Source of the DNA: Dicyema japonicum
Lineage: Eukaryota; Dicyemida; Rhombozoa; Dicyemidae
Direction: 5' to 3'
Length of the DNA stretch: 64,000 bases
Assembly (NCBI GenBank): GCA_011109175.1
Contig: RDEW01000041.1
Coordinates: forward strand, 434,001-498,000
The translations under genes and the position numbers were made by a program. Of the stretch, positions 2,400 to 26,966 are shown one piece after another (position 1 is the stretch's first letter; each line of letters starts with the position of its first letter). The notes below the pieces were generated by a model. The model saw only the letters and a program-made list of their open reading frames with translations, had not been told where the DNA came from and did no database searches.

Positions 2400-3504
2400 A
2401 TGTACAAGACTGTTGTTGTTATCGGCGGAAGTGGGTTTTTAGGATCACACCTCGTTGCAATGCTTATATCTAGAGGCTTTAAAGTCCGGATACTCGACCT
2501 CATACGACCAAAAGAAGGCCTTGGAACAGATATGGAATTCTTTTACGGCAGTATGATGGACAAACGAGTACACGTGTATAAAATGACGAAAGAGTTTAAC
2601 CGAATGCTTAGAAAGTGAAATTTACGCCGTATTTTTGGTGGCTTCTCCTCCCCCACTTTCAAACGATGAGAAACTGTTCAACACCGTGAACTTCTTTGGG
2701 ACAAGAAATGTCCTCGAAATTTGCAAAATACAAAAAATAAACGTGAGAAATTGAAAATATCCATTTAGAGGCTCATTTTGACGAGTTCGGCAAGTGTGGT
2801 CTTCGACGGATTCCATGATGTGATCTTTGGGGACGAATCTCTGCCATATGCGGAGAATTCACTGGACAGCTACACGAGGTCCAAAATAATGCAAGAAAAG
2901 GTAGTTTTTTACTTCATGTTGGCTGTCCTTTCTGCGAATTGCGAAGAATTGGCGACCGTGGCTTTGAGACCTCACGGAATTTTTGGCCCCCGGGACTCTA
3001 TTTTTCCGTCAGTAGAAAAGAATTGCAAATCCCTGAAGAGATTCTTGATGATTGGGTAGTTGAGCTTGTTCATTTAGGTCTGGGACAAATCTGGCGGACT
3101 TTACTTTTGTGGAAAACGTCTGTTACGCCCACGTGCTAGCTATGGAGAAGCTGGAACCTCATGGAATCTTGGCGGGGAATGCTTATAACATCACCAACGA
3201 TGAACCCGTGTTTTTCTGGTCTTTCATTGGGCGTATAATGGAAGGATATAAATCCGCGAAACCGTCTGTTTCCGTTCCGTTTTTTCTGTTATTCGCCTTC
3301 GCGGTGTTTCTTCACCTTTTGAGCGTTTTTTTGTCTCCGTTTATAAAATTTAATCCAAAACTGAGTCCGATGATGGTTTCATTGTCAGGACTGCATCATT
3401 ATTACTCGTGTGAGCGAGCTAAGCGGGATATGGGATATTCCCCCGTTGTGAGTGTGAGTGAAGGAGTTGAGAAGACTATGAAGTTTCACGGAATTGCGTT
3501 TTGA
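2400..3504 (+). CDS. NSDHL: Sterol-4-alpha-carboxylate 3-dehydrogenase (NSDHL-like), 4 exons with micro-introns
   Basis: Extended short-chain dehydrogenase/3beta-HSD family. In animals NSDHL oxidises and decarboxylates C4-carboxysterols at the ER or lipid droplets. Exons: 2400-2567, 2593-2742, 2769-3055, 3078-3504, about 343 aa (human protein 373). Introns of 25, 26 and 22 nt, each GT-AG, are needed to keep frame. The Rossmann motif GGSGFLGSH is at residues 9-17 (G9, G12, G15). Then come a VASPPP segment, TSSASVVFDG with catalytic Ser near 112-113, and the YTRSK catalytic Tyr141/Lys145. RPHGIFGPRD, DFTFVENV, ITNDEP and HHYYSCERAK follow, all NSDHL hallmarks. A hydrophobic membrane segment (VPFFLLFAFAVFLHLL) is near the C-terminus, as in the human protein. 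The start is the first ATG, seven codons before the glycine motif. Oddity: an in-frame 21-nt insertion at 2901-2921 starts with GT and falls exactly where the family has a gap. Identity is very secure; the intron borders are inferred from protein continuity. Confidence 0.9.
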
Positions 3505-3654
3505 TTTATCCGAGATTATTAATATTTGATTTTTGGCTTTAATAAACTGATTATTGTTTTAGTGGGAAAAAATTTTTTTAATGCCTTTTCACGAGAGCCA
3601 TAGTATTTATAGCTCCGCATTGGCAGGACACACACTTTATTTAAGTAAACAGTT

Positions 3655-3900
3655 AATTTTAACTAATCGTAGAACCAAGGAATGATCTTCACTTCTTTTT
3701 TTTCTTTTTCTTGTGTGAGTGTCCTTTCTAGACAATCCGGTTCCGCAGTGAGTATCCACTGATGACGGCGTCACTCTTCAAACCCTTTCTGCATCGTAGA
3801 TGCATGGAACCTTTCACCAGGTGAACAGCAGCGAGATTCGAACACGTAGCCTAAGCCACTTAAGCCCGACACCTAACCATTGTGCCACCATGCCACCCGG
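3655..3900 (-). repeat. tRNA-derived SINE (minus strand)
   Basis: On the minus strand the head reads as a tRNA-like promoter: an A-box-like TGGCACAATGG (complement of about 3879-3889) and a B box GTTCGAATC (complement of 3834-3842), about 45 nt apart. The body then has a 'ggttccatgcatctacgatg' stretch and ends with a 'cattccttggttct' motif. The same order of landmarks is seen on the + strand at 5330-5595, so this is a repeated SINE family rather than a lone tRNA gene. The anticodon arm resembles tRNA-Leu(UAA), but I would not insist on that. Confidence 0.65.
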
Positions 3901-4024
3901 CTAGTAGGAAATAAGCATTCAAATAGCTAGTGCAACGGTGTCAAACATGCGCCCCAGACAATTTAATGGCTATAAAACACAAAAAATAATTTTGTTATTT
4001 TTTACATTTAATTAAAATATTAGC

Positions 4025-4215
4025 AATCGAGACGTCTGGTGCGGCCGGAAGTATTACAGCCTCTTTCCTAAAGGAAACGGGGGGAAATTGGCTCACCGCA
4101 AGAAAGACGTGCGGGAAGCGGTCTGACTGAGGCAACGAATTGGTATCGCAGTTGTTCGCAAAAACGCTTACTCCGTGATGTCAGCAGCCGCTCTCCCCCA
4201 TAGTTAATAAATAAT
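4025..4215 (+). pseudogene. 3' end of an RLE-type LINE
   Basis: The + frame gives an IETSGAAGSITAS segment followed by decayed sequence. It matches the C-terminal tail of the copy at 22.4-24.2 kb (IETSGAVESITAS) and, more distantly, VVETSGVFGPKTVSF of the 43.2-kb copy. It ends in an AT-rich 'ttaataaataat' tail, as expected for a 5'-truncated insertion. Confidence 0.55.
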
Positions 4216-4221
4216 ATTTTA

Positions 4222-4640
4222 TTGTTAATAAATTTTTCAATTAAAAAATTAAAATTTTTGCCAGACAACGCCCACTTGTTTAAAGATATTTTATTAACCA
4301 GAAACACTGTTGCCAAACACAAATTACTAAAGTCTCAGCTATTAAATAAAGATTTAGTTCATTTTCCTACGTACAACGAGCTCAGGAGTACAGTTGGTGC
4401 ACATAGTATAATAAATTTTCCCAAGTATGAAAGACCAGTAGAATCGTTGTTAAAGAATTTAAAAAAAGATTCAATGATTTCTCGTCTTTTGAACAACAAT
4501 TTTCATTATTCACATTCGAACAAATTGATCTCGTTTACCCATATCGTCAGTTGGATTTCGAGATCGATCACTGGCAGTGGCGGGTCTACCACCGAAAGAG
4601 CAATTCAAGACAAATGTCATCACAAAAAATGACCTTTCCA
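4222..4640 (+). pseudogene. hAT-type (ZBED/GTF2IRD2-like) transposase fragment
   Basis: One frame reads KSQLLNKDLVHFPTYNEL. After a frame change near 4465 the next reads EFKKRFNDFSSFEQQFSLF and then YRQLDFEIDHWQ. This order (KL..SQL..HFP, then a basic (E/D)F.(K/R)RF.DF, then hydrophobic LF) is typical of domesticated or decayed hAT transposases of the ZBED5/FAM200/GTF2IRD2 group. The fragment at 24.4 kb has the equivalent FDERFQDF. The frameshift and lack of the C-terminal dimerisation domain make it a relic. Confidence 0.6.
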
Positions 4641-5329
4641 CCTGTCGATAATAAAAAACATTCGTTATCTCATCCAAGGGATTTACGGAGTCTGTACGGG
4701 ATCGAAGCCCCTTCTCGTATCATGTCGGAATGTACAATTATGGCAGACTAGAACTTGCAATACTGCCATAAGCCTTTTGCTGTATTAAAGTGTGCGATAG
4801 ACATCCTTGGTCCTGGCATAATTTCTTTAAAATAAAATTTAGAGACTTGATTGCAATAAGTACCTCGAAAATAGTAAAGAAATCTCAAATTGAAAAAGCT
4901 TTTGCGACGAAAGCGCTTAATAAGTCAGTTTATCTTTCTCTTATCCCATTTTCTTATTCAGGACAAGCGATCCATCAAATTTAAAAAAACAGCCAACTTT
5001 TAAGGTTCTTTTAAAGTTACTAAACGTAAAATTAATGTTAATGATTTGCCATCATGGTTATTATGACAAAATCAGCATAAATTCATGGATACCGTTTTCG
5101 TACATCAATTTGAATTTTAAAATGTAATTTAACACTATTTTATGAAAATTAAATTTCGACCTGTCCGAACTTGGGGACCTTCGCTCGTAGTTTGTCCACG
5201 CTTTTTAGTGGAACGTTGAATTAAGGGGAAAAAATAAGACGTTAGACTCTACGTCAGTAGGGGGAATTAGTGCTGCTATTAAGGCACTCTCTTCTTCAAA
5301 GGACCATTATAAATGTGGACCTCGAAGCG
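4641..5329. other. No recognisable gene
   Basis: Contains only short open stretches (for example + 4790-4984) without recognisable motifs. It is AT-rich from 4980 to 5160. It may include further decayed hAT sequence, but I see no diagnostic residues. Confidence 0.3.
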
Positions 5330-5595
5330 AAATGAGCTTGACACCCCTGAGATAGTGTAGCGAGTGCCGGGGAAGAGGCCTGATGGCCCTAGTTCGAATC
5401 TCACATTCCGGTTGAAGGTTCCAGGAATCTACGATGCTTTGGCTTGACGGGTGACAATTTCATCAGTAAATACATCACTGGGAACCGTCGTATAGAGGAC
5501 ATACGCTATAAAAAAAAAGTGAAGAGCATTCCTTGGTTCTCCCTTTACTATTAGTTATGATAACTGTTCTTACTTAAAGTTTGTGTCCGATCGGA
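5330..5595 (+). repeat. tRNA-derived SINE (plus strand)
   Basis: B box GTTCGAATC at 5392-5400, with a degenerate A-box-like region about 45 nt upstream (near 5351-5366). Downstream are 'ggttccaggaatctacgatg' and 'gcattccttggttct', the same landmarks as in the inverted copy at 3655-3900. An A-run (about 5510-5520) separates body from tail. The two copies have diverged considerably, so the family is old. Confidence 0.65.
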
Positions 5596-6534
5596 GCTAT
5601 AGCTAGTATGGCTCTGCGTAAAAGTGCAGAAATTTATTTATAATGAAGCTATCGTAATTGAGATCGCAATATCTATAACGATTTATATGCAAATTTGCTC
5701 AATTAACTATTCTTTTCTCGGTTGTCTCTTCCTTTTTTGCCATCGAAAGTTCTATGAAACTATAGATTTCGGCTGTTATGGCTTGAAGGCAGAATTCCTA
5801 TAAGATTGTGTATTTTTGAAGGTTTCGACTTTTGCTAAGTCTGATTCAGGATGAGTTGCAGACATCATGAGGTTTTATAAAGAAAGTCATCTACATAGGT
5901 GACGTCAGCGCAAAGTATTTTTAATCCTTTCGCCGTCCCCTCGGGTTTTTTCTTCTTGGTGTTTAATCAAATAGAGTTTTTGTGTGTAGGTTAGTCTTAT
6001 TGGCTTGTCTGGTGTGCTGCAAGGGTTGGATGATGTGGGAATGGCTAATAGGGAGTTACGTCATATCTGTTGTACTGTAAGGGCTTGGGTTGTTTGTGAG
6101 GGTCGGAAGTGAAGGAGGGATATATTTGTTGGCCTAAGGAGGTTTAATCAATTATAATGTAAGGATCGGGGAATTTAAGATTAGTTTAGAAAAGGTTATA
6201 AGTAGCTTATGTAGTCTGATCAATTATGTTGTGGGGGATAGATGGTGTGGGAGTAGTTAAAGAATGTTTTATTATTGTTTTAAAAATTCATCAGCTATAA
6301 TATAGACATTCAGTATTTGACTCCGCCGATCGTCTCAGAGTCCCATCAGCCGACAATAGTGCCCTCCGGTGTTCAAAACATGTTGAACATCTAAAAATGT
6401 ACATCATCTTTGACATGGGAATACATTTCTTGAGCAAGAAGACACATGTGGATCCAAAGATGATACTTTATTTGTAAAGGCTTCAACTTCATTATTCTTA
6501 CTGGTAAGGTAGTTCTCCAGCTCGTCGTTTTTAT
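5596..6534. other. No recognisable gene
   Basis: 5990-6300 is G/T-rich on the + strand and has no long frame. I recognise no protein, RNA or repeat shared with the rest of the window. Confidence 0.3.
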
Positions 6535-6915
6535 TTATTAATTAAAAAATTAACCGCTTCAGATTGAATGGTTGGACAAATTTCGTGAGCATTATTTCTA
6601 AATACATCTATTTTATTCCAACAATTATTTATTGTGTCCCTAGCTACTCGATTCCAGGTTTCTCGAACAAATACGTGTCGCATATTTATTTTTAACTCTC
6701 ATAATAATTTTCATAAATATCGTAGATACAAATTGCTTCATAGAGGACATTTGAATATCAAGATTTAAAAAATTGATAATTCCCACATCATGAGGTTGAA
6801 AAATGGCTGTTGTATTTTTTGGAAGTGGACTGTTGTGTAGAAGGTCTGATATCTTTACAGATTTTTTATCAAAACAATTTTCATCTTTAGTGACAAATGA
6901 TTTATTTGAATTTAA
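6535..6915 (-). pseudogene. pogo/Tigger-type DDE transposase fragment
   Basis: Reading the minus strand, one frame gives LLHNSPLPKNTTAIFQPHD followed by VGIINF, the canonical LPxNTTxxxQPxDxGxI block around the last catalytic aspartate of pogo/Tigger/jerky transposases. Downstream, after a frameshift, another frame gives RVARDTINNCWNKIDVFRNN, the family's C-terminal 'I..CW.k.d' segment. The upstream DDE residues are not found nearby, so this is a truncated, frameshifted relic. Confidence 0.7.
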
Positions 6916-7789
6916 AAAAAAATTTCATCAAATTAAAAAACATCTTCCATATCAAAAAGTTTTTGATTACTAAAAAAAACAGAAAAAAGAATTCAGTGAG
7001 CCTTTGCAGATAAGATTGTGGGGTGGCCAACCCTTTTCGCTCGCAAGCTAATTTTTACATAGCGAATTGTCTGGCGATCGACTTTTTTGTATTTTAATAA
7101 CAATTTTTTTTAATATTAGATTTTATTTAACAAAAAAGAGAATAAGAAACAAACACATCAAAAATAGAGAATTTTTATTTTATAATAAAAATTTAATGCT
7201 ATTTTTGTCATTGTAATTCTCCTGCAATTACTTTGAACTCTGGCTCATATGAGGGGAAATATTGATGGCTCTTCGTTCCTTTCCGGAATGGGTGAGACCT
7301 TTACGAGCCATAAGACATCACGTTAAGCACACGTCCAGAGACTAAGCTCCACAAAATCAATTCAATATACCGGAAAACTATATTTATGGAGGGTCTCATT
7401 CTGAATCACTTGTCAATTATTTACTCGCAGAAGCTATGACCCGTAGTCGCGGAACCGGATTCCTTCGGGTCTGTAAAAAGAAGGAAACCCGCTTAGCTCG
7501 TCCTTTTCCAATGATTGGGAAGTTCTCCTCCATAATTGGATTCCTCTGTAGGGATGAGATAAGGCTCTTTCGCACGTAGTAAGAAAATAGGAGACCACAG
7601 ACGTTGGATGGCTCATTCGACCACGGAACTTAGATTACCTAACTTTCTGACGTTTTTCTGTCTTTATCAGTGATCCCGGGTTCTAAATAAATATGGATAT
7701 CGTTGTAAAACTACAAAAATTCTCTTTAACTATGTGTTTCATTTTAAGAAGTTTTTTTGTGCACCGAGGTGCTCCGAATATAATTGGAC
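6916..7789. other. No recognisable gene
   Basis: AT-rich (7080-7200), followed by sequence without recognised coding potential. A short minus frame at 7434-7616 carries no motif I can name. Confidence 0.3.
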
Positions 7790-7945
7790 GACATGCTAGT
7801 GTTGCTACCAACATGCGAGCTTAAAAAGACAAAAAGCATTGCTTGTTTTGGTCGAAATATGTGTGAACAGCTTTTTTCATTTATGAAATTAAAAAAAACT
7901 GCTTAAAGAACAATTCTCACTAATAAAAATTATCCACTTTAATAA
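7790..7945 (+). pseudogene. hAT transposase C-terminal fragment
   Basis: The + frame reads MCEQLFSFMKLKKTA, a stop, then RTILTNK. CEQLFSxMKxxK and R..LT are the conserved core of the hAT C-terminal dimerisation domain. The equivalent at about 24900 reads EQFFSTMKLNKSSFRLKL. Only about 50 residues survive. Confidence 0.55.
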
Positions 7946-8059
7946 AAGATGGAACTACAAAAATAGCTGTTTTTTGTTTTTTATATAATAAATATTTCTT
8001 AAAAAATAATATATCAGAACTAATTTTCCCTTGATGAGGGCAAAGGAGAATAAATACGA

Positions 8060-8300
8060 AGTTCTACCCCATTGTTCTACCCCATTGTTGTTGAGACGAC
8101 TGGAGAAATAAGTGGGAAATTGCTTCGTTTCACAAAGAAGCATGGACGCCTAGCTACACTAAAAAGCCACGACGCACGTGAGACCCGGTGGCTTATCCAA
8201 ATGATATCTGTTGCAATTGTGAAAGGCAACACAACGTCTGCAATGTCGGCTGGGACCACGTTTGATGGATTTTTTTGTTAATTAATTGATTAATTTAGTT
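8060..8300 (+). pseudogene. C-terminus and 3' UTR of an RLE-type LINE
   Basis: The frame starting PIVVETTGEISG and running to WLIQMISVAIVKGNTTSA matches the C-terminal tail of the 43.2-kb element (PVVVETSGVFG ... LFQRISLAVVRGNSHS). The frame ends at 8281 and is followed by AT-rich 3' sequence. It is 5'-truncated, as is usual for LINE insertions. Confidence 0.7.
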
Positions 8301-8459
8301 TGTTAGCGTAATAAATCGCATAATAACAAAACCTTGTTGAAAGAATTATTTCCTGGCGTACGCGTTTCCCGCGTAATGCGGAAACCCCGACTCATTGCTT
8401 TAACCAGAACGATTCACATGGTTTTTTTCGACGACTCGCTAGTTTCCTTCCTATTTCTT

Positions 8460-8960
8460 TCAGAAAAGCCGCAGTGAGAGATCCTAAGGCTCTTGACGTT
8501 TTATGGCCACTTGTGTGAATCGGTCTTTACAGCCGAATACTTCTGGATCTTGGCCGATTCTGATGCGTTGGACGCAGATCCAGGTTTCTGAACAGATCTC
8601 AGAAGGAGAGAAGTGGAGAAGGTATCCAAACAGGTTACTTCCCAGACCAATGATTTTCCGTGTGAATATGGGGAAAGCGTCATTCCTTCTGGCCTCTTTC
8701 CATCTCTACGATCCATCCGACAGGCTCAGTTGAGCTGGGAAGCCTGCTGCCTCGAGAGTTCGCAGAATAATATTATTCAATGCGGCGCGTGACGAGATGA
8801 GCTACCTGGACTCTTTTTGCAAAACAATAAATGTAATCCTTTGGTGTCAACTGTCCCTCCACAATGGCATCTGTTTCTGCAGACGTCAAGTCCCAATCGT
8901 TGTGCTATTCCGATTTTCACACAGTCGTCATCCATAAGTGTTCAGGAAGAAGCGCATGGA
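8460..8960 (-). pseudogene. RLE-type LINE endonuclease-domain fragment
   Basis: Minus-strand frames give DDDCVKIGIAQRLGLDVC, then a zinc-ribbon-like CHCGG...GLHLLFCKKS...RH, then DGKRPEGMTLSPYSHGKSL and VWEVTCLDTF. Intact copies have KRPDG and WDVTC at the PD-(D/E)XK site. Here D is E in both motifs, so the nuclease centre is altered. A frameshift separates the zinc and nuclease parts. It lies tail-to-tail with the + fragment at 8060-8300. Confidence 0.75.
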
Positions 8961-9639
8961 AATGCGTGGAGCCATGCACCACTACTCAATTTTAAAATTG
9001 GTCAAAAACCAGTCTACTCTGTAAAATTTTTAATTGAATTTTTGTCGCAGGAATTATTTTCACCGGAAATTGCTCTTAAAAATAGTTCACGACGCTTTCT
9101 AAAACGGTCGAGCCATCTATTTAAGCCTTTGAAATTTTAAAAATTTATTCGAGCCGCGATAGTTATAGCAATTTTTTTAAATTCCATCTTGCCTCAAGTT
9201 TCTGAAAAGTTCAAAAACTAGACGATCGAGTTTTGATGAAAAATCTGATTCATAGTTTTTATATAAGACTTCCTCAGTATTAAGGTTTGCAGAATCAAAT
9301 CTTTGTTTCTTTTTTGGTTCAATAAAATAAAAAAATCTCTATTTTACTATAGATAATGTCCCTTTCCTAATTTTATGCATCATAGATATTTCCTTCGGAC
9401 ATAAAGTTCCTTGGCAGGGTTCAAAAATTTTTTGCTTTAACACACAAGAAAGCTTTTTTGGAATGGTTTAAAATAATTTAATTAATAATTTAGAATAATA
9501 AAATTTTATTAATAAAAATTCCACAATAAGCGGGGTTGATGATTTTTATTTATTATTATTCTACCCGTATCTTAACCACCAGCATGGCTTTGAGTTTCGA
9601 GTTTTGAACTAACCGACCGATTGGCGTACGACTCTGTTT
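8961..9639. other. No recognisable gene
   Basis: AT-rich, especially 9440-9560. No motif or shared repeat recognised. Confidence 0.3.
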
Positions 9640-9960
9640 GTGAGCCGCGTAACGCCATGTGGTGCTTCGTGGCTAATTGGTTGAAGTTTTTGTTTGTTCG
9701 TCTGTTCCTTCCTCTCTCTTCCTATTAGAGTAGCGTCATGTGATCCACCTCTCTAGTGACGCCCAGTGCCAGGCCGGCACGAAAAGGATCATTTTGCTCT
9801 CCCCCACTTTATTGGAGGGGTTTCCACTACTGCAGTAATGTCTTTTACCTTTATGTTGATTCGGATGGACTTCGTTTCTGTAGAAGTGGAAACTAAATAT
9901 ACTTAATTAGTTGTTTCTTTAACTTCTTTTTTGGTGTATCCGGGGTTAATAAATAAATGA
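9640..9960 (+). mobile_element. Short internally deleted LINE derivative (SIDE-like), copy 1
   Basis: About 320 bp. It starts with 'cgccatgtggtgcttcgtgg' and contains 'ggccggcacgaaaa', 'ggatcatttt' and 'gctctcccccact'. It ends with 'ggtgtatccggggttaataa' and an (aata)n tail. A second copy with the same order lies at 29970-30290. The 5' half resembles the 5' end of the LINE at 15548 (gtcatgtggttcacc ... gaaccatttgctcttcccc). The 3' end resembles that LINE's tail (acttaattagttggttt ... cggggttatt). No coding capacity: a non-autonomous partner. Confidence 0.6.
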
Positions 9961-10368
9961 CCATCAGCATACAGGTTTTTAATAATTTTTCATTCTCTTC
10001 ATTTAGACTATCTTCGAGCATTGCTCAAATAACTCTTTCTTTTCCTGGAAGCATCGGAGCAGTTGTATGCCTCTCCGAAAAATGAAGAAAAAGATCCTTT
10101 CCTTAGACGCTGAAAATTTTTGACTTCTTAGATATGTCCCTTATTAAGACATCTAGGTGAGGAAAGCTCGCCATGAAGATAATAAATAACACTATAATCA
10201 GAACTGTGCTTCGAGGTACTCTTCTTAGTAGAAAAATCAGCTCTGATATTTTTCCGCCATTTTTTACAAAAGACCACTTCTCACTAAAAAGTTCTTTACC
10301 CAAACAAATATATAGCGTAGTACCCCCGTAAATACAAGTTGCGACAAGAATCTAACAACAACAATTTA
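9961..10368. other. No recognisable gene
   Basis: Unassigned sequence. A 66-codon minus frame at 10103-10303 has a hydrophobic stretch, but no family is recognised. Confidence 0.25.
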
Positions 10369-11053: not shown

Positions 11054-11165
11054 GGATCCAAAGGTTCACCAAGGATCTACGCGAGACTGGATGGCTTAGA
11101 GAGTATCTCGATAGCTTTTGTCAGAGGAAAAAGCCAGGCGATTCAAGCCCCCTAGATTAATTTAA
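11045..11165 (+). pseudogene. C-terminal tail of an RLE-type LINE
   Basis: After one frameshift the + strand reads SISIAFVRGKSQAIQAP and a stop, matching RISLAILRGNSHAV at the C-terminus of the 34.7-kb element. An AT-rich 3' tail follows. It is a very short 5'-truncated copy. Confidence 0.55.
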
Positions 11166-12628: not shown

Positions 12629-13397
12629 ATGTTCGAAAAGTCAGATTTTCTGAAATTATATTCCTGGATCGACTCAATTCCTCTGAGCCGCCCAAAAAAG
12701 AACATCAACAGAGATTTCTCCGACGGGGGTAAAATCTGAATTATTTAAGTTTTAATGGCCGAGGTGATGAAATATTACTTCCCCTCGATGGTTGACCTCC
12801 ACAATTATGTCCCCGCGAACGGATCCAAGCAGAAAACGGAAAACTGGAATCTAATCAACAGGCAAGTGCGGCATATGTTTGATATTCGATTTTCCACAAA
12901 TTTATTTTTAGCAAAATATTCCACAAATTGGGATTCGACTTGGCGACTGACGAAATCAGGGACATTGTCGCCTGCAAGGTCCATGCCATAGAAAGGGTCC
13001 TCTTCTACATTCTTGACAACGTGACCACGTGGGCTCAAAAGAGCGGAAAAATGAAAGGTGGGATCTGCTAATAAATTGATTTTTACTTAATTGATCGTTT
13101 TAGATAGGGGATTTGCCAGGCACGTGGACAAAGCGCAGACTGACGAGTAATTGATGTTGATAATTATTTGGGGGAGAAATATATATAGGAACAAAGTCTG
13201 CAATCGGGAAGTCTGTGGGGGATGCATGGCTATAGGAGAGAAGGACGAACTGATTGACGTGGCTTTTTTTGTTATTTCAGATTTTGGAGAAGAAAATCCA
13301 CCGCCTTGAAAATTTGATTTGTCTGAAGGACATCCGCATTGACGAATTGTCCCTTAAAGTTAAAAATCTTGAGCAAATTGTGTTCTCTCACCGTTGA
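12629..13397 (+). CDS. SPEF1: SPEF1/CLAMP-like calponin-homology ciliary protein, 6 exons
   Basis: SPEF1 (CLAMP) is a microtubule-bundling CH-domain protein of motile cilia and flagella. Inferred exons: 12629-12728, 12750-12861, 12912-13057, 13104-13146, 13189-13258, 13281-13397, giving 195 aa (human 236). Introns are 21, 50, 46, 42 and 22 nt. The second begins GC (AG|GCAAGT context) and the others are GT-AG. The CH domain has the family signatures WIDSIPLSRPKKNINRDFSD, GVLMAEVMKYYFP and MVDLHNYVPAN. The last exon encodes the conserved C-terminal coiled coil (ILEKKIHRLENLICLKDIRI), equivalent to the human MKVLRLEHLLRLKDLRI region. The ATG is the only one consistent with the family's short N-terminus. 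Every junction restores family alignment. The GC-AG intron is the least certain, but it gives an exact-length match. Confidence 0.92.
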
Positions 13398-15536: not shown

Positions 15537-15574
15537 ATGAGAATTAAGACAGGATCCCGGAGGGTCAAATTCTC

Positions 15575-16318
15575 GTGGCGTCATGTGGTTCACCTTTTGT
15601 GGTGGCGCTCAGTGTAATAATACACCAAAAAGAACCATTTGCTCTTCCCCATCCAGACTCTTTATGCCTGGATGGTATACCTCAACTGGAAACTCGAGAT
15701 GTTGTTTTGTTCCTCTGGATTCTATTGCTTTCTGGAGATATTGAACAAAACCCTGGACCAAAACCCCTTGTTATTATGCAACTCAATGCTAACGGAATAA
15801 AAACAAAGATTCTGGAGTTACGATCTTTATTAACGAAGCAAAAGATTGACATCTGCCTTATCCAGGAGTCAAAACTTTCTACAAAGAGTTCGACCCCACT
15901 TTTTCCTGGATACATCTCTATCAGAAAAGACCGCATTAGACGTGGTGGCGGCTTACTCACAATTATCAGAATCGGTCTATCCTTCCACGATGTAAGCTTG
16001 CAAGTGGATGATTTTATTCTACACGACAAGACCGCGGAACAAATTTCTATTGATCTTATTAATGGGTCAGAACATCTTATTCTAATCAACATTTACATTC
16101 CACCGCCGGGATCCTGTCCTAATAACTATGTTCCGAAGCTCGACAAACTACAAGAAATTCGAAATGTGTTACTATGTGGGGATTTCAATGCCAAACATCC
16201 GCAATGGTTTAGTACTCAGTCGGCAGACAAGAGAGGGAGTCTAATTATCGACTCTCTCAAAAATGGTGATTCTGAATCACCCGAATATGATCACAAGGAC
16301 ACCTATCCGAAGAAATGA
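15575..16318 (+). pseudogene. 2A-like peptide plus AP-endonuclease domain of the family A LINE
   Basis: Open for 247 codons. The 2A-like motif LLLSGDIEQNPGP lies at nt 15722-15760, matching D(V/I)ExNPGP, which makes ribosomes skip the final Gly-Pro bond in known 2A sequences. The AP-endonuclease starts immediately after it: VIMQLNANGI, LIQESK (catalytic Glu), a GGG loop, INIYIPP, LLCGDFNAKHPQW (Asp/Asn). The frame is lost before SDHNP, which is found in another frame at about 16400. The codons upstream of the 2A motif (about 49) would form a short leader. No in-frame ATG is obvious upstream, so the true start is unknown. Confidence 0.8.
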
Positions 16319-16565
16319 CAACCCAACCTCCCCGACATATCCATTGCTTCCTCTAGGATTGCCCCGAAGATTTCATGGAACGTCTTCTACGATTTTATAG
16401 TGATCATAATCCATTATATTAAAACTGAGCCGATTCAATAACTCGCGTAGAATTAAAGCAACCTTCAAGGTCTACAAGAAAGCTGACTGGTCGAATTTCA
16501 AGCTCTTCATTGACAATAACCTAATACACTTTGATCCCACCTCATTTTGCTCCATCGACAAAGCA

Positions 16566-17111
16566 GTGGACCATCTAAACCATGTAATCCTTCAAGCTGA
16601 AAAGTTGTTTGTACCACGTGCAGTTTACAAATCCTACAAGCCTACTCTGGACTCGGAGACTCGTCTCCTCATCAAACAAAGAAACTCCCTGAAGATGAAT
16701 CATCTGCAAACCTCTTCTGATTTGCAAAATATAAAATGCTTAAATCAGAGAATTACAAAGCTCATCAGAGAAAAGAAAGATAGGGCGTGGAACCGCCTAT
16801 TATCATCTATTGGACATATGAAATCCACGAGTCTTTTATGGAAAACTATTCGTCGAATCAAGCTAAACTTATCAGATGAATCAGAATCTTTTTCTGCTCC
16901 AAATACTGTGCAAGCTAACAACCTAATGAAATATTACGCATCCATAAGTCACAAGGACTTCTCGAAATCCCATTCTTGTCACCTTCAGAATTTAGTGCCT
17001 AAACCAACTTCGTGGATCAATTTATTTACGCATGCCGAGGTCACAGGTTATAAGATCGATGAAGAGATCTTTTTACGTGTGGACCTGACGGCATTCCGGG
17101 AATTTTGTTAA
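16566..17111 (+). pseudogene. Linker between endonuclease and RT of the family A LINE
   Basis: 181 open codons, basic and helix-rich (LIKQRNSLKMNHLQ, LNQRITKLIREKKDRAW), ending with YASISHKDFSKS. This parallels the region between endonuclease and RT in the minus copy (SISHKDFSRS). The frame stops just before the GPDGIPG block, so a frameshift at about 17080 separates it from the RT. Confidence 0.75.
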
Positions 17112-17156
17112 ACACCTTGGTAATGCTGCAATCAATTCATTACGTCAATTTTTAAT

Positions 17157-17819
17157 TTGTCTTCTAACATGAATCATCCATGCAAATGGAAGAACTCACT
17201 TATAATACCGATCCTTAAACCAGGAAAACTGAAAACCTCACCTTCTTCCTACCGTCCAATTTCATTAACGTGCGCATTATCGCGCCTAATGGATAAACTC
17301 GTACTCTGGAAAATTAAACCCCATTTGCCCGACTGCCACTTTCAACATGGTTTCATATGTGAGCGTTCAACTACGACACATTTGATTTCACTGTCTCAAT
17401 TTATATCAGACGGGTTCAACGTACCGAAACGCCATCTACGGACAATAATGGTTTCCCTGGATATCCAGAAGGCGTTCGATTCTGTCTCGAGAATATTACT
17501 CACAAAGAAGGTTTTTGACACCACCATTCAGACGGATTTGAAAAGATGGATAGCCAATTTTCTCTCCGGAAGAAGAGGACGTGTCTGTATAGGCCACGCA
17601 AGATCGAGGTCCCGTCTCCTACCAAATGGCGTCCCTCAAGGATCGCCCCTCTCTCCGGCATTATTCAACTTGTTCCTCAACGATTTACCCTGCCCTGGAG
17701 GACCAGATTCAATGCTTCTCACTTATGCTGACGACCTAATCATCGCTAGCAGGAAAAATACGTGGGTACAGCAAAATCAGAGCTTCAGTCACATATTGAC
17801 TACCTGGGAGCCTGGTTGA
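17157..17819 (+). pseudogene. Reverse-transcriptase core of the family A LINE
   Basis: 220 open codons with all central RT motifs: WKNSLIIPILKPGK, SYRPISLTCALSRLMDKLV, MVSLDIQKAFDSV (first catalytic Asp), LPNGVPQGSPLSPALFNLFL, and LLTYADDLIIAS (YADD catalytic pair). The catalytic residues are intact, but the ORF is out of frame with both the upstream linker and the C-terminal part (YLGAWLKLNRLSVSRDKS from about 17785). Decayed, yet recent enough to keep motif-level identity. Confidence 0.85.
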
Positions 17820-18547: not shown

Positions 18548-19446
18548 ACGACGTTACTTTGTTCCTGAGTTTATATTCTCCAGATTACAACATTTCTGGT
18601 ATTACCCCAAGCCAAATCTTGCAACATCGGTCAAGAAGATGACCAGTTTGTTGTATGGAGACCTAACGGGTTGGGCCACTCTTCTTAAGCCAAATTTAAA
18701 ATAGTTATACTTCAATCCGCACGAGAAAAGTGGGATCATCACAAGAAGTTGCAGAAAAATGATGTCAACAACTTTCCGTGGGAAAACTACCTCCCGTTGT
18801 GGGTGGAAGACTGTTCACGTTTTCTGTGAGTATTCGTCAGTTGCTTGTCGAAGTACACAATATCCAAGAAAAACAAGGTGTTGAGGACTTTTCTAGAGAC
18901 TTCGATTTTTTGGAATGATGGCAAATGTTCCACTTTTCAAATGGGATAAGAGGGATCGTAATTTCCAACACTTGATTGCGGATTCCGTTTACATTTATTG
19001 TAGATTAGTCAATGTGTAAGTTGGATCCCGGATCAGGTTCCTACATCCACCAGACAAAAATAGTTAAAGAGAAAAACGAGAGAATTGGTAGGCCACCCTT
19101 CTTGAAGATCGCAGAAGGGTAAGGGATAGGTCCCGGAACGGTTCTTCTTTCCATGCAGAACTTGCCACTAAGCGCAAACTACAACAACAGGTAAACGGCA
19201 TGACCCCACGCTAATAAAACTTTTCAGGATTCCCTTAAAAAAAACTAACAGCTATAACTTTTAAAAAAAATGGATTTGGGAGTAGAATTTTACATTTTAT
19301 GCCAACACACCACAATAAAAATCTGTAAGTTTTATTTATTCTTTTATAGATCTATATAATAAAAAGAATAAGTTGTCAGTCTGTTTGTCCGTGCAAACTT
19401 ATTATAGCTTAAAAAAAGGATATGCCTAAGATAAATTGCCAAAATA
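18548..19446. other. No recognisable gene
   Basis: Some open stretches on the + strand (for example around 18760-19020), but no identifiable domain. Near 19350-19400 a 'ctatataataaaaagaataa' plus 'gtctgtttgtccgtgc' stretch looks like a transposon end, without further support. Confidence 0.3.
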
Positions 19447-19655
19447 ATATGATTCAACCTCTTCAAAAGAGATCGGTCCCTTAGAAAATTAAAATTCTAA
19501 AAGAGTTATAAAAAAGAGATTCATTGGGAAAATTAGATGATTTCGACCTCTTCAAGAGATCGGTCCCTTAGAAAATTAAAATTCTAAAAAGAGTTAAAAA
19601 AGAGATTCATTTGAAAATAAAATGATTCGACCTCTTCAAGAGATTGTCATCCCTT
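19447..19655. repeat. Tandem repeat, unit about 84-89 nt, 2.2 copies
   Basis: 'cctcttcaa' followed by 'gagatcggtcccttagaaaa' starts at 19458 and 19547, with a partial third unit at 19631. The period is 89 then 84 nt, the differences being in A-runs. It directly precedes an RLE-LINE fragment. Confidence 0.7.
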
Positions 19656-20165
19656 GTCATGCAAGATGAGTGCGGGTCGTTTCCCCAGGCATTCCTGTCT
19701 TAACATGACATTAAAGAATTCCCTTGCCTTCTGCTGGACACCATTGCCTGTTAGAAACCTGCTGGTCTTTCCCGAAACGATAGAAAACGCTCTGATGGGA
19801 TGACGACTTTTCCATTCTCCAACGGACGAAACCTGATTCTGGGACGCGACGTGTGTTGATACTTATTCCCCGTCTAATTTGGTTGCTTCTGCTTCAGACC
19901 CCAGGACATGCTTCAAAGCAGGCCGAGGAACGAAAGAGGAGGAAGTACCAGAGAATTTCGGAGGAGTATCTTTTTGTTCCATCCCGCGGTGGAAACGTCA
20001 GGAATTCCTTGGCCCCCAAGCAGATGAAGTTGGTTCGTTAAGATCGGCTCCATGATTCAGCTGTGACTAAGGATTCCGCGAGAGGACTGGTTGGTTCGAG
20101 AACGTATCTCGTTGGCTATTGTTAGGGGAAATAGCATGGCCATTCAGATGCCTTAATTTAATTTT
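19640..20165 (+). pseudogene. RLE-type LINE endonuclease and C-terminal fragment
   Basis: Across three frames: CHPLSCKMSAGRFPRH (zinc-ribbon/basic block; compare HALSCRKSAGRFARH in the 43.2-kb copy), DGMTTFPFSNGRNLILGRDVC (PD-(D/E)XK region with W replaced), ERKRRKYQRISEEYLFVP, then EDWLVRERISLAIVRGNS and a stop near 20158. An AT-rich 3' tail follows. Several frameshifts. Confidence 0.65.
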
Positions 20166-20586
20166 TATTCATTTGATAATAAAATTTTTTACTTTTATTC
20201 GTTAAATATAATTCACTAAGGAATAAACTGATCTCCTGAATTTTTAGTGACAAATATTAATATAGTGTCCACCAATATTGAACTCTTGCCAACCTTATGA
20301 GATCTCTGACAAGCAATATTTCTGGGCCACGCGACTCACAATTATGATGGCATTTGGGAGAAAGGAGTTACGGTTTTCTACCCTACAAACAGGGTGGATA
20401 AAAGATCCTTGAACGTCGGAGTTTTACAAAATAAATTGAATGGATATTTTACTATTACATTGGTTAGTTGACATGATGATGCAGCTCTCAAAGATTCCTT
20501 CCTTAATTTTTTGAATTCCTAGAGCGTCGTCCAAATTGTCCAGGTTAGGAAATTTTTCTAAATAAATTGTCAAAATGTAAAAAAAT
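20166..20586. other. Upstream region of the Cdc25-like gene
   Basis: AT-rich intergenic DNA; no coding motif or named regulatory element recognised. Confidence 0.3.
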
Positions 20587-21175
20587 ATGAATGAATCAAG
20601 AAAACTTAGCAATAAAGAAAATCCCGTTCTCAACAAAGAAAATATACTCGAAAAAAATACGGAAGATCAATATTTTGTTGATGTCAACGAATTCAAACCA
20701 ATTTTGGTACGAAAAACTTAACTTCTTCCACGTGAATTATGAGATCCACCCATTATTATCAGTCCCTCTGATTTTCCCGGATACGGTGATGCGGATAATC
20801 ACAAACGACCTCCAAAACCTGGTCTCTAGATACTATTTGTATGACTGCAGGAGCAAAAAGGAGTTCAAAGGAGGCCATATTTTGGGGGCAACTCTGTTTG
20901 CGGAGGAAGAGTTCAAAGAAAATATCCAAAATTCAATGAGAGGAACACTATTCATATTTTACTGCCAATATTCGTCAAGGAGGTGTTTGAAGGTTGTCTC
21001 TAAAATACAGAAAGAAATCAAAAGGATCTCGGACTTTGAAAAGATGACGTCATGCCCAAATTTATCTATTATTAAAGGAGGGTACGACGGATTTTTCAAA
21101 GACTACCCAAACTATTGCAAACCTCGTGGATATTTGAAAGAAGAAGATATTTGTGAGATTTATTATAATGTATAA
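20587..21175 (+). CDS. Cdc25-like rhodanese-fold phosphatase, 2 exons
   Basis: Inferred exons 20587-20706 and 20744-21175, with a 37-nt GT-AG intron, about 183 aa. The unspliced alternative from 20591 is open but gives a basic, unfamiliar N-terminus. The spliced one is acidic and joins cleanly at IHPLLSVP. Catalytic core: YYLYDCRSKKEFKGGHILGA (Cdc25/rhodanese substrate-side motif) and CQYSSRR, a CX5R loop (Cys114, Arg120) like CEFSSER of Cdc25. Then SIIKGGYDGFF and PNYCKPRGY match the family's LKGGYxEFF and YCEPxxY. Cdc25 enzymes dephosphorylate CDKs on the inhibitory Thr-Tyr pair to drive mitosis. The long regulatory N-terminus of animal Cdc25 is missing, either lost or in undetected upstream exons. 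The Glu before the loop Arg is Arg here. Confidence 0.75.
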
Positions 21176-21294
21176 ATCAAAATAAATTTATTTCGTTAAT
21201 TTAATTTATAATTTTAAATGTAATCTTTGTTTCTTCAGGTGGTGATTTTTTCCAATTTTCATTAACTAATTTTTTCTTAAATCTGATGTTAAAA

Positions 21295-21485
21295 CCAGGG
21301 CTGTGGAGTCGGTAAAATATAGCACGACTCCCGATTCCGACTCCTCGACTTCGTTTCCGACTTTGTTTATTATATAAAAAAAAATTCAGTCGTTGTAAGA
21401 ATAACAGAAGAAATCGGAGTCGTCCTTTTTATCATTGACTCCGAGTCCTCAAATATTATTTCTTCGACTCCGACTCGACACAAAT
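21295..21485. repeat. 'ctgtggagtcgg / gactccgactc' dispersed repeat
   Basis: 'agggctgtggagtcggtaaa' at about 21297 is followed by repeated gactccga/cgactcc motifs on both sides of an AT-rich centre, ending 'cgactccgactcgac' near 21478. The ends are partly complementary, as in a MITE or foldback element. Similar 'ctgtggagtcgg' elements are common in many animal genomes. Confidence 0.55.
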
Positions 21486-22369
21486 CAAATATTCTCTCCA
21501 CTGTGAACAAAATAATTTTGTCTGCAATTTCGAAATATGTCATGCGATCCACTCCCCTCAGGATACGTGTAGTGCTTGGATGGCACCCAAAAAAAGATTT
21601 ATCTAATTTTACTTTAGTGGCGAGGTCCCGTAATGGCAGATATGGATGGACGTGATGTTTGGAAAAAGCGACATCATAATATTATTCCTGCGTTTAAATC
21701 ACGATCCACGCTATTCACTTTCAAGGCTTAGAGACGAGTTCAAATCTTTCCTTGACAACTTTTCCATCGCCATTGAAAGATCACTTGTGATACTTTTATG
21801 AATTTTACATATCATACACTAAGTCCTTACCAAGAGAGATAGGAAGTTTTAAAAGAAGAATGCTCTCCCTCAATCAGCCTATATCAGCAAGTTCTATCAT
21901 CGCTTCAATGATGGAATAGCATGTTCAACCTGGAGTTTTGCTCTTGCCTTTTTTAGGATCGAGAAAATAATGTGTTTTCTTTTATTGGAGAGTCCATAGA
22001 TCGTCACTGTCTTTTCAAAATAGTCTACAAAAAACAGTGACTATGTAAGTAGAAAACCTCCAGGAAAGGATAATGTCCACATTAGTGAGATCCAGGTAAA
22101 AGAGGAGGAAAATTTAATTTTATAGAATAGTATTAAAATGATATGGGGTAAAATCGAAGATACTGACCACGTGGAAAGATTTCTAAGCTGATTTGTTAAT
22201 AAATTGCAAAAAATACTTATCTACGACATACATTAAGCTTATTTCTGGACTGAAACAGAACATTTCTGATCATAACGTGTCTACATAATCACAACGTGTT
22301 CCATCAGAGCCTTTCTCTATGGACAGTGATCCAGAAGATATTTTTTGGGAAATTGAGGTCAAAGTAATA
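21486..22369. other. No recognised gene; one plausible short coding stretch
   Basis: A + frame from about 21653 for 48 codons (MFGKSDIIILFLRLN then HDPRYSLSRLRDEF) has coding-like composition but no recognised family. The rest is unassigned. Confidence 0.25.
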
Positions 22370-24245
22370 ACTCTCGGCCACGAAAAAATAGTTTCCAAAA
22401 AAATAAATGGTTAGACGAGAGTAGTATCCGTAAAACGCCGTCGTTGCCAGGGACAATACTGTCCTTGTCACAACGCCTGAAGTGCTCGAACAGCTCAGAC
22501 TAAAACATCCATGCCCCCCGCCTATTCGTGTCCCCGGGATATGTGACAAGGACGACCGTCACCGAAGGCGAAGTACGGCGCAGCATTTCGTCGTTCGCAG
22601 CGAGTAGCAGTGGTGGTCTCACATTAAGGATCTCACGGCTGGGAAGAAGCTGACTGCACCTTGTCAAATCAATTACAAAACTGGCTACGGGGATATTTCT
22701 CCTCACGCAAAGGAGCTTGTATTCAGCGCACATCTACTAGCCTTCAATAAACCTGAAGGTGGGGTCCGCACCATCGCGGTCGGCAACTATTTCAGAAGGC
22801 TGACAGCTAAAATTGCATCCAGCATTGTCTGTCCGAGAATATCTGATAAATTTTCCCCCTCCAACTACGGGTCGGTGTTAGGTACGGATGCGAGGCGGCG
22901 GTGCATGCTACAAGATGCTTTTTTGGACAGAAAGACGAACAAAATCCGCACATGGGGGTTAAACTAGACATTGTACTGCCTTCAATTCACTATGGAGGGA
23001 TCAAATTTTCGAAACTTTAAGCAAACGATCCCCGGAACTTATTCCATTCGTCTACCGCCCATCTACTAAAAAAGGAGGATGAACTTTCTAGAGTTACGGA
23101 GAAACTCTCCTTACTCAATGCTCATACAACGTTCTTCTTTTTGAAGTATAGCATCGGCTTGCCCAAACTCCTATACGCTCTCCGTTGTTCTCCCTGCTTC
23201 AAACATCGTGACATCCACCTGTCACTGGATAGGACATTGAGAAAATCAGTCGAATCGGTTCTAAACATTTACTTTGACGTGTCGAGTTGGAATCGATACA
23301 AGCTTCCTACACTCCTCGGAAATACGGGTCTCAGGTCAACACTGGAGTTGGCTTTTCCAGCATATCTGTCATGACTTTCAAGTGGAAGTCTTTTGGTTCA
23401 AGATATTCTACGTTTTCCAACCATACTTTCTTGGGACACAGTCTTCGATGAAGCTCGTCACGAATGGTGTGAAACGATCCTTCGATGCAATGCGACTGGG
23501 ATGAGATCTACTCCAAGAATATCTTCGACGTGCTAAAGTCTGAGGCCAACCAGCATCGTCTTGCATGTCTCGTGTCCGCCGCCAACCATGGGAGCGAAGC
23601 ATGGCTGGATGCACTTACGTGTTCCTCTCTGGGTACACTTTTGACGATGACTGTATTCGGATTGAGATCGCTCAGCGCCTAGGAGTTGACATATGCGTCG
23701 AACACCAATGCTGTTGTGGAGGAATCGTCGATGCCAAAAGGCTACATCAGCTTTCGCGCAAAAAGAGTGCGGGCAGAGCACCCCGCCACGTTGCTATGAA
23801 CAACATTGTCATACGTGCTCTGAAGCTTCCAGCAGTGTTAGAGCGCATAGGATTAGACCAAGAAGACGGGAAAAGGCCGGATGGGCTAACAATTTTTCTG
23901 TTCTCTGAGGGAAGATCGCTGTATGGGACTTCACTTGTGTGGATTTTTTTCTAACTCAATGATGCTAACTTTGGCGCAGTCTGATGGACCGACAGCCGAT
24001 CTTGCTGAGAAAATCAAGATAAAAAATATGGTGGAATTGGAGATCGCTTTCGTTTTGTACCAATGGAAATCGAAACGTCTGGTGCTGTGGAAAGTATCAC
24101 AGCCTCGTCCCTGATGGAAATCAGAAGAAATTGGCCCATCGTAAAAAAGACGGTAAGCCGTCTAACTGAGACAACGAATGGAGATTATAGTCGTCCACGT
24201 GAAACGATTACTTCATAATTTGAGCAGCCGCACTTTCCTAATACC
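22370..24245 (+). pseudogene. RLE-type LINE, partial and decayed
   Basis: Across several frames: ELVFSAHLLAFNKPEGGVRT then IAVGNYFRRLTAKIASSIV (RT motifs 1-2). A deletion removes the RT catalytic core. Then PKLLYALRCSPCF, NQHRLACLVSAANHGSEAWL, DDDCIRIEIAQRLGVDICVE, CCCGGIVDAKRLHQLSRKKS, RH, GKRPDGLTIFLFSEGRS and VWIFF (nuclease site partly lost). The C-terminus is FVPMEIETSGAVESITAS. Stops and frameshifts throughout. The 3' region matches the short fragment at 4025-4215. Confidence 0.75.
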
Positions 24246-24354
24246 CTAACTGCCTTTTTCTTGTTGTTTTAATAATAATTAATTTAATTAAAAAAATAAA
24301 AAAATAAATTAATTTGTTTTTGGTAATTTTTTTTTTAAATAGAAGTTTGGTAAT

Positions 24355-25080
24355 GAAAGACAATCATGTACCTGAGCTCTCTGAACCAACTTATATAACA
24401 AATCTTGCATTCCTCACAGATCACTTAAACAAATATAATGCCAGCCACTAGGGTCCGAAACAGTTTATTACGGTGATGTATGACTGCATAAAATCCTTCA
24501 AATTCAAACTTTCATTATGGGGAAAGCAGTTTGCAAATGATAATATTTTTGCACTTTCCAACGCTGCAGTTTTTAGAAATGTCAATAAGCAGAGGTTGAA
24601 AAATTATACAGATTTACTCTTGAAGTTATATAAGAACTTTGACGAACGTTTTCAAGATTTTTTAATATTAGAAGATCGATTTACACTTTTTACCACTACA
24701 ATGTCAATAAATGTTGAACTTATTACTAAGTAATTTCAAATGGAGATAGTGCAAGTTCAAAATGACACCCCAATGAAAAAAAATGCTGAAGTTGGAATTT
24801 TAGAATTATCTAAATTTCTTCGATGTAAAAGATTTTCTCAACTACATGCTTTATCTTTAGGAATCTAAGCAATGTTTGACACTACTTAGATGTAAGAACA
24901 ATTTTTTTCAACAATGAAATTAAATAAATCTTCTTTTAGATTAAAACTAAGGGATGAACATTTACAGTCTGTATTAAGGCTGGCAACTCTAAAAAAACAT
25001 AATCTGAGGACAGACATCGATCATTGCTTTCCAAGAGGCGTTGTCAAAAATCGTGGAATATTGAGTAATATATTGTTTTA
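24355..25080 (+). pseudogene. hAT-type (GTF2IRD2/ZBED-like) transposase relic
   Basis: Frames with few breaks read ELSEPTYITNLAFLTDHLNK, then MYDCIKSFKFKLSLWGKQF, LYKNFDERFQDF, and after about 24890 EQFFSTMKLNKSSFRLKLRD and EHLQSVLRLAT. This follows the order of GTF2I-repeat-type hAT proteins (LTDLAFLTDIT.HLN..., AF..KL.LW, F..RF.DF, FS.MK..KS..R..L.D.HL...LRIA). The BED zinc finger is absent. At least one stop and several frame changes; a dead fossil. Confidence 0.7.
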
Positions 25081-25571
25081 AGTTTAAATAATAAATTAAC
25101 TTTTTTTGTAATTTTAAAAATTAAAAAATATTAATTTAATGTCAAAAAATGACCCAAGCAAATTACGGATAATAAAATGGCCCTTATAGGTTGAGATGGT
25201 GACGTGGCTCTGTTAAACATACGACAGAAAAACACTCATTACGATACAACCGAGAACTTCTGAAGCTAATGACATTTAATGTACGTGGAATATCAAAGGA
25301 TTTGAATTTGAGATCCCCTGTTTATGTAATATTTAATATATTCCGGTGTCCTCTGAGCCCGTAACCTTAAAAAAGGAAAACAGTGATTTTTCTCCATAAT
25401 GAAAGGTAGTGGACATTTTTCGCAGAGTTACATCACCACCCTAACTTATGACAAACTAATCACATTTCGAAGATTAGTTGAATAAATAACGGAAACAATA
25501 AAATTTATTTTTCTGTAAATAATCTAGATCGTCGAATCGCATGATTAATAGTGAATAGTGGTACACTTCCA
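25081..25571. other. No recognisable gene
   Basis: AT-rich start (25080-25150), otherwise unassigned. No shared repeat detected. Confidence 0.3.
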
Positions 25572-25920
25572 ATGGAGGTATTTGATGTCTTCACTAAATT
25601 TACTGAACGAAAATACAGAAAAGACGACGATAGAGCTGATCACCTAAATCATACGTATACGACTGCTTTGCTAAATCTAATATAGAGCAGTAATCGAGCA
25701 AACCAATGATCTGTATGCTTCCCAAGCAATTTGACAGTAATTTGCTGAACAAATACATGGATTATGTCCACGATAGTCGATGGGTTAATAACACGTGCTA
25801 TGTTGCTTTAGATAAAAATTGATCACTCAAGCAAACTACAACTCAAGACTATCAATGGTCTCTATTTATATTTTTGATATTTGCCGCATTTTTCGGATCC
25901 CTTGTATCTTCTGGAGGTTG
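25572..25920 (+). pseudogene. Innexin (gap-junction protein) N-terminal relic
   Basis: Innexins form gap junctions and hemichannels in invertebrates. From an ATG at 25572: MEVFDVFTKFTERKYRKDDD then RADHLNHTYTTALLNL (family: DD..DRLN..YT..LL, end of TM1). After an in-frame stop, a deletion of about six residues and a frameshift: PMICMLPKQFDSN, KYMDYVHDSRWVNNTCYV (family: PI.CW.P..F ... KY...YCWV.NTY). A TGA follows, then QDYQWSLFIFLIFAAFF (family: YYQWVPF...A, TM2). The first-loop Cys of YCWV is Ser here. It stops after TM2 and shows no GT-AG solution for the stops, so it is a truncated pseudogene about 75 nt upstream of the LRR gene. Confidence 0.72.
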
Positions 25921-25994
25921 ACTAGTGATCTTTGGGCATTAATCTCAGCAAATATCCAAGCAAATGGAACGATAGTAATTTTGTTGCCATAGCA

Positions 25995-26966
25995 ATGAAT
26001 GTGGATAACTCTCACCAGCTTACTAGGGAGTGCAAGGTACAGAGGGAAGAGTCTGTCCGTGCATTAAAGGGAAAGTCAAAGCAGCTAAATATTGTCAACA
26101 AACGTCTGACACGTGTGTCCCTGGATTTTGGAGTGCTCTCAAACATTCAGATCCTAAATTTGAAGAACAACTTTCTAAAATCTCTGCCGGAAGAGATAAA
26201 ATTGCTAGAAAATGTAAACTATAAGCCTAAATCGTAGCTCAGAGAACTTGATCTGTCTAATAACAGCTTCAGCAGCATTCCCACCCAAATTAAAGGACTC
26301 AAAAGATTACTTCGTTTATTTTTGTTTAAAAACCAAATTAATTTCATTGAAGACGACTTTTTTTATTCAAATGATTGTATTTTGGTGGAAGTGTTAAATC
26401 TGAATGATAATTTGATTCAATATATTCCTTCCAGCATAAAATTGTTATTTTTATTTAAATAAAAATAGTTTAGAAAATTTAAAAATTTTATTTTTAACCA
26501 GAAATAAAATAAAATATGTTCCAGAAGAGATTGGGTTTCTTTCACAATTACAAGAACTCCATGTGGGTTTTAACGCCATAAAATTACTTCCCGAGGGAGT
26601 TGTCAAACTAAAAAGTCTCAGGAAACTTTCCATTCCTAGGAACAAGCTACAATCTTTCCCTTCAGTAGAATTTCTGTGAATTTTAGAAAATGGATAATTT
26701 GACAAATCTAACTCATTTGGACGTGGCAGGCAACTATCTCACCTTTATTCCGAACTCAGTTTAGTTTTGTGGTGTTAATTAGCTGAATCAACTGAATTTG
26801 AGGGAATTTTACTTTGAAATGAACTGTTTCGAGGTAAAACATAAAAATATCACTACGGAGTCGATCATCTTGGTGCCAAAATTATCAGTATTTTTGTTAA
26901 ATTGACCAGGAAATCGCACTTCGCCAAATTGTGACAGAAATCGATGACTCCCTCACTTCTCGGTGA
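25995..26966 (+). CDS. LRRC69: LRRC69-like leucine-rich-repeat protein, 6 exons with micro-introns
   Basis: Inferred exons 25995-26213, 26238-26443, 26469-26664, 26687-26758, 26783-26887, 26910-26966, giving 284 aa. The five introns are 24, 25, 22, 24 and 22 nt, all GT-AG. Each removes an in-frame stop or frame break and restores the 23-residue LRR register. The N-terminus (SVRALKGKSKQLNIVNKRLT) and the C-terminal LREFYFEMNCFE after the last repeat match LRRC69 (ALKGGKNTK..., LREFYCEGNPLF). About eight LRRs of the xLPxxIxxLxxLxxLxLxxNx type are visible. Function is unknown in the family; cytoplasmic, no signal peptide. In exon 5 a further 27-nt GT...AG segment (from 26834) is in frame and could be spliced or kept. 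ATG 25995 is the first in frame. Confidence 0.85.

Follow-up and report, generated by a model that had tools for sequence, protein, structure and literature searches.

Candidate spliceosomal introns of about 20-26 nucleotides in genes of Dicyema japonicum

Short GT-AG segments in conserved genes of the window

The stretch of DNA analysed here (the window) comprises 64,000 nucleotides (nt) of the Dicyema japonicum genome, positions 434,001 to 498,000 of contig RDEW01000041.1 in assembly GCA_011109175.1. It carries three conserved genes (an NSDHL-like gene, a SPEF1-like gene and a leucine-rich-repeat (LRR) gene) that are interrupted by very short segments, as well as a proline dehydrogenase (PRODH) gene. 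Dicyemids are tiny worm-like parasites or symbionts of cephalopods. A preliminary description of the window had proposed that ten of the segments are spliceosomal introns and that their size comes close to the smallest known in animals. This proposal was borne out by homology within the window, by PRP8 and four dynein heavy chain genes, by controls with decoy and free boundaries, and by the presence of small nuclear RNA (snRNA) genes. We interpret the segments as U2-type spliceosomal introns that have shrunk in this dicyemid to about 20-26 nt in all genes studied in depth, and assign this reading a probability of about 0.97; that the segments are actually spliced we infer from the sequence.

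All ten segments were located where they had been placed (Table 1), and each starts with GT and ends with AG. The lengths of seven are not multiples of three, and retention of any of the other three (SPEF1 intron 1 and LRR introns 1 and 4) introduces in-frame stop codons. Boundaries alone are weak proof, because GT followed by AG at 21-26 nt arises frequently by chance (11.6 times per kb at 15575-17819, a retrotransposon stretch made up mostly of long open reading frames), and the proof is therefore carried by protein matches. As had been claimed, removal of the segments restores conserved proteins. The spliced NSDHL product is open from ATG to stop and matches PF01073 (170 bits) in Pfam and, in a comparison with PDB, human NSDHL 6jkg (193.9 bits over residues 3-241), the latter alignment spanning all three junctions. 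An alternative first intron at 2594-2615 (22 nt), which also leaves the frame open, was rejected owing to its lower scores (Pfam 164 versus 170 bits, PDB 191.2 versus 193.9 bits). The spliced SPEF1 product matches PF06294 (114.2 bits) and human SPEF1 2ee7 (116.8 bits, residues 8-104), the latter without gaps across the junctions of the 21-nt and 50-nt introns, and a weak separate match of residues 152-188 to SPEF1 9ijx (E 8.4e-4) spans the last junction, located after residue 157. The spliced product of the LRR gene, labelled 'LRRC69-like' in the preliminary description, matches PF13855 (LRR_8; 93.1 bits) in six stretches, and PDB LRR proteins align with it beyond the fourth junction, the best chain up to residue 231 and others up to residue 243. 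The fifth predicted LRR intron is the weakest of the ten, resting mainly on the open frame.

Further introns of 42-50 nt had also been reported in SPEF1. Three such introns are indeed present (50, 46 and 42 nt), although 37 open placements exist across the 46-nt and 42-nt pair, and hence the positions of both are not unique. The 50-nt GC-AG intron exceeds the typical length of the GT-AG mini-introns. The sequence endings had been described less accurately: not most, but four of the ten segments end in TTAG or TTTAG, and six end in TAG.

Table 1. Locations of the genes, introns and minor spliceosomal snRNA genes (positions refer to the window; the prefixes C1, C34 and C68 are our contig handles)
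Feature	Location	Strand	Remarks
NSDHL-like sterol-4-alpha-carboxylate 3-dehydrogenase gene	2400-3504	+	4 exons: 2400-2567, 2593-2742, 2769-3055, 3078-3504; 343 amino acids
NSDHL intron 1	2568-2592	+	25 nt, GT..AAAG
NSDHL intron 2	2743-2768	+	26 nt, GT..TTTAG
NSDHL intron 3	3056-3077	+	22 nt, GT..TTTAG
SPEF1-like gene	12629-13397	+	6 exons, 195 amino acids; CH_2 domain and SPEF1-like C-terminal part
SPEF1 intron 1	12729-12749	+	21 nt; in-frame stops if retained
SPEF1 intron 2	12862-12911	+	50 nt, GC-AG; ungapped alignment across junction
SPEF1 intron 3	13058-13103	+	46 nt, placement not unique
SPEF1 intron 4	13147-13188	+	42 nt, placement not unique
SPEF1 intron 5	13259-13280	+	22 nt; weak 9ijx match crosses junction
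LRR gene	25998-26968	+	6 exons, start codon putative
LRR intron 1	26214-26237	+	24 nt; open frame, PDB LRR alignment
LRR intron 2	26444-26468	+	25 nt; open frame, PDB LRR alignment
LRR intron 3	26665-26686	+	22 nt; open frame, PDB LRR alignment
LRR intron 4	26759-26782	+	24 nt; junction follows residue 230 of spliced product
LRR intron 5	26888-26909	+	22 nt; junction follows residue 265, LRR_14 match extends to residue 267
PRODH open reading frame without intron	27896-29041	+	PF01619, 118.8 bits, residues 154-379
U11 snRNA	C1:1591391-1591510	-	one match, 67.6 bits, above Rfam gathering score
U6atac snRNA	C34:237761-237858	-	one match, 37 bits, above Rfam gathering score
U12 snRNA	C68:163471-163599	-	one match, 85.4 bits, above Rfam gathering score

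Intron lengths in PRP8 and dynein heavy chain genes

PRP8, which lies at the catalytic core of the spliceosome, was analysed together with dynein heavy chain genes elsewhere in the genome. Ab initio gene models proved inadequate and were replaced by homology-guided splicing. Under their first settings they yielded only 12 introns, and when trained on PRP8 codon usage they failed on the genes of the window. When NSDHL, PRODH and an innexin served as the training set, long portions of these three genes were recovered; the first NSDHL intron was placed differently, the innexin intron was wrong, and SPEF1, the LRR gene and U2AF were missed. The five introns of 35-83 nt in the ab initio model of PRP8 had swallowed conserved exons and were replaced via homology. 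A purpose-written spliced protein-to-DNA aligner was used instead, with 15 animal PRP8 proteins, chosen among 120 listed, as references; introns of 12-300 nt were allowed and GT-AG ends were required.

The resulting PRP8 gene contains 36 introns, all of 20-26 nt, and a single frame break (score 9830), and encodes a product of about 2,300 residues with 80% identity to PRP8 of Lingula. Since GT-AG ends were imposed in this alignment, their occurrence in 36 of 36 introns is true by construction. When each of eight decoy boundary pairs took the place of GT-AG, with a maximum intron length of 120 nt, the alignments reached scores of only 8636-8849, with 2-15 introns and 19-29 frame breaks. When the donor dinucleotide was left free (introns up to 40 nt), GT was chosen at 35 of 36 donors, and when the acceptor was left free, AG was chosen at 34 of 36.

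These results bear on the alternative that the segments only mimic introns and stem from indels in decayed pseudogenes or from errors of assembly. Single-nucleotide frame breaks do exist in the assembly, as seen once in PRP8 and in the frame change of PRODH described below, and suitably spaced GT and AG are common by chance, as noted above. Nevertheless, the free-end runs on PRP8 recover GT and AG almost throughout whereas decoy ends fail, random indels should scatter over the permitted 12-300 nt instead of keeping to 20-26 nt, and the encoded proteins are otherwise intact, as exemplified by the uninterrupted NSDHL frame and the similarity of the PRP8 product to that of Lingula. A pseudogene carrying 36 such introns in a conserved protein of this size with one frame break is not credible, and we therefore regard this alternative as very improbable.

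A DNAH5-like gene contains 58 introns, 51 of them of 20-26 nt. Our own grouping of 42 matches indicated 12 dynein heavy chain gene-like places in the genome, and 20-kb stretches were examined for four of them. A filter on the alignment flanking each intron retained all 36 PRP8 introns, 45 of the 58 DNAH5 introns (13 with weak flanks were dropped) and 58 of 175 introns in three distant dyneins, whose alignments were noisier and which were aligned to DNAH5 references with a stricter filter and a lower intron penalty than DNAH5 itself. The 139 filtered introns of these five genes have a mean length of 26.6 nt; 116 measure 20-26 nt, two are shorter and 21 are longer. PRP8 and the filtered DNAH5 introns both have a median of 23 nt. 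Given a flat prior over 15-150 nt, a homology-free model predicted 135 introns, 62 of which measure 22-25 nt.

Splice signals and spliceosome components

Signals were examined in those introns of PRP8 and DNAH5 that are no longer than 30 nt (79 in all). Their interior has a G+C content of 12%, T stands directly before the final AG in 57 of them, and the exon side of the donor carries A at position -2 in 56 and G at position -1 in 46. Donor positions beyond GT are nearly unconstrained: among the 127 introns of the five genes that are no longer than 30 nt, G is found at +5 in 19, and the extended GTRAGT consensus, which is typical of U2-type introns and not obligatory, does not appear. The TAAT-like branch word seen in the preliminary description has no clear excess over composition among the 79 introns, a set that does not include the ten of the window; the mean match to a branch-point word was 4.62 versus 4.51 after shuffling, and 21 of 200 shuffles equalled or exceeded the observed value. 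Interior G+C is 5% in PRP8, 18% in DNAH5 and 23% in the ten window introns, and intron composition thus differs strongly among genes.

A second alternative holds that the segments are not spliced at all, and are either kept in messenger RNA and bypassed in translation or eliminated at the DNA level. Uniform short A/T-rich inserts with weak motifs may indeed resemble the internal eliminated sequences of ciliates. However, the segments have GT-AG ends with a favoured T before the final AG, snRNAs of both spliceosomes are present in the genome, and introns of the same kind were described in Dicyema acuticephalum from a comparison of complementary DNA (cDNA) with genomic clones (PMC2222250). This alternative appears even more remote than that of pseudogenes or assembly errors.

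Genes for components of the major spliceosome were detected as follows. U2 is represented by 22 of 25 listed matches above the Rfam gathering score, with the GTAGTA word in all six loci read, and U6 by nine of ten matches, with the ACAGAGA word in the one copy read. One SF1 match lies above its cut-off, and U2AF65-like exon pieces occur in order at one locus. The U1 5' end ACTTACCTGG is visible in five of the six U1 loci read, the sixth having been seen incompletely; these six loci score below the gathering score despite the canonical 5' end in five, and their interiors differ from one another. Judged by these genes, the splicing machinery looks conventional, whereas the introns do not.

Most likely, a conventional U2-type spliceosome recognises each intron as one short unit (intron definition). 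Donor pairing would then rest on the exon-side AG plus GT, the branch A would be any suitable A within the A/T-rich interior, and the AG would be chosen less by sequence motifs than by a limit on spacing of about 20-26 nt.

Several points weigh against the interpretation as uniformly shrunken U2-type introns. Of the 139 supported introns, 23 fall outside 20-26 nt, some of which may be misaligned introns of the three distant dyneins, and the homology-free model spread 73 of its 135 introns outside 22-25 nt. None of the 11 U1 matches reaches the Rfam gathering score, the best scoring 69.0 versus 69.5. Each U2AF65-like piece is below the whole-protein cut-off of TIGR01642, a consequence of the genome having been read exon by exon. 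Finally, intron definition and the spacing ruler are features that we infer, and they are counted on this side as well.

The least expected result is that this dicyemid has probably retained the minor spliceosome, as suggested by the presence of U11, U12 and U6atac snRNA genes (Table 1). The U12 match contains ATGAGTAAGG, which we take to be the U12 branch-site recognition word. U12-type introns have ATATCCTT or GTATCCTT donors and TTCCTTAAC branch sites, and none that was convincing occurs in the genomic stretches examined. Searches of the open PubMed Central literature for a minor spliceosome in dicyemids yielded PMC2483917 alone, and its dicyemid passages mention none. That a working minor spliceosome has been kept alongside extreme intron shrinkage is a tentative idea, which we consider rather unlikely. 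If true, U12-type introns would need to accommodate both a long donor and a long branch site within roughly 25-35 nt. No animal would have smaller minor introns, and they would offer a natural test of how compact the geometry of the minor spliceosome can become. The three snRNA genes make the question of minimum intron size testable for the minor spliceosome too.

Relation to known short introns and other features of the window

The assembly spans 64.7 Mb in 191 contigs, and the G+C content of the window is about 37.5%; a similar genome size of 67.5 Mb and G+C content of 36.7% are given for D. japonicum in PMC6736024. An innexin from which one 26-nt intron was removed has its best match in innexin1 of Dicyema koshidai (77% identity over 99% of the query), a species placed in the phylum Dicyemida. 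The published dicyemid mini-introns of D. acuticephalum, D. japonicum and Dicyema sp. accordingly come from the same phylum, and share with those described here a length near 25 nt across several genes. In 2007, cDNA and genomic clones gave a mean of 26.2 +/- 1.9 nt for 16 introns in seven Dicyema genes (PMC2222250), and in 2019 the median for Dicyema sp. was put at 27 bp (PMC6543705, where a survey of 40 D. japonicum genes by Ogino and colleagues is also cited). The mean intron in D. japonicum gene models is 38.2 bp, as stated in the genome paper (PMC6736024), and, according to PMC2483917, the 5' boundary score of dicyemids is weaker than any other known and their introns lack a branch-point signature. 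Compared with these published introns, the typical length found here is slightly lower (median 23 nt), although the mean of the 139 filtered introns is 26.6 nt. Because short length, weak 5' sites and an absent branch signal have all been published for Dicyema, the finding of dicyemid mini-introns is correct and already known in kind; a lineage-specific feature of the genome had been correctly picked up by a tool-free reading of the window.

Short introns are likewise found in another simplified spiralian parasite, the orthonectid Intoshia linei, but there the median is 57 bp and most exceed 30 bp (PMC6543705). Introns of similar or smaller size occur in Paramecium (20-35 bp) and in the Bigelowiella nucleomorph (18-21 bp), as summarised in PMC2222250. 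Stentor coeruleus also has tiny introns, with all snRNAs reported present and SR proteins reported undetected (PMC9505925). Ciliates and Bigelowiella differ from dicyemids, however, in being unrelated single-celled lineages. Human SPF45-dependent introns are likewise short, with a truncated pyrimidine tract, whereas the model intron of 56 nt described in PMC8363638 is more than twice the dicyemid length. Dicyemids apparently combine a conserved spliceosome with the removal of introns of about 22 nt that have almost no motif past GT and AG, and thus offer a good system for studying the minimum size of introns and the marking of their ends.

Two innexins labelled as Octopus sinensis show 53% and 48% identity to the dicyemid innexin (over 67% and 70%), and innexins of two other named molluscs among those listed show lower identities of 34% and 31%. 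The proteins labelled Octopus sinensis are possibly dicyemid contamination in the octopus assembly.

PRODH had been described as having no intron. This holds for its long open reading frame, although the C-terminal similarity continues in another frame: the shift lies near the C-terminal end (28960-29213, + strand), and similarity reaches about 29213. An intron that would account for the frame change was looked for at 28960-29213 and none was found; the change may reflect either faulty assembly or a genuine lesion. The window also contains two pieces of non-LTR (long terminal repeat) retrotransposons, one with an endonuclease and a reverse transcriptase (15575-17819, + strand) and the other with a PHD finger and a reverse transcriptase (36046-37599, - strand). 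A rhodanese-like domain (E 3.1e-8) is encoded in an open reading frame of 194 amino acids at 20591-21172 on the + strand.

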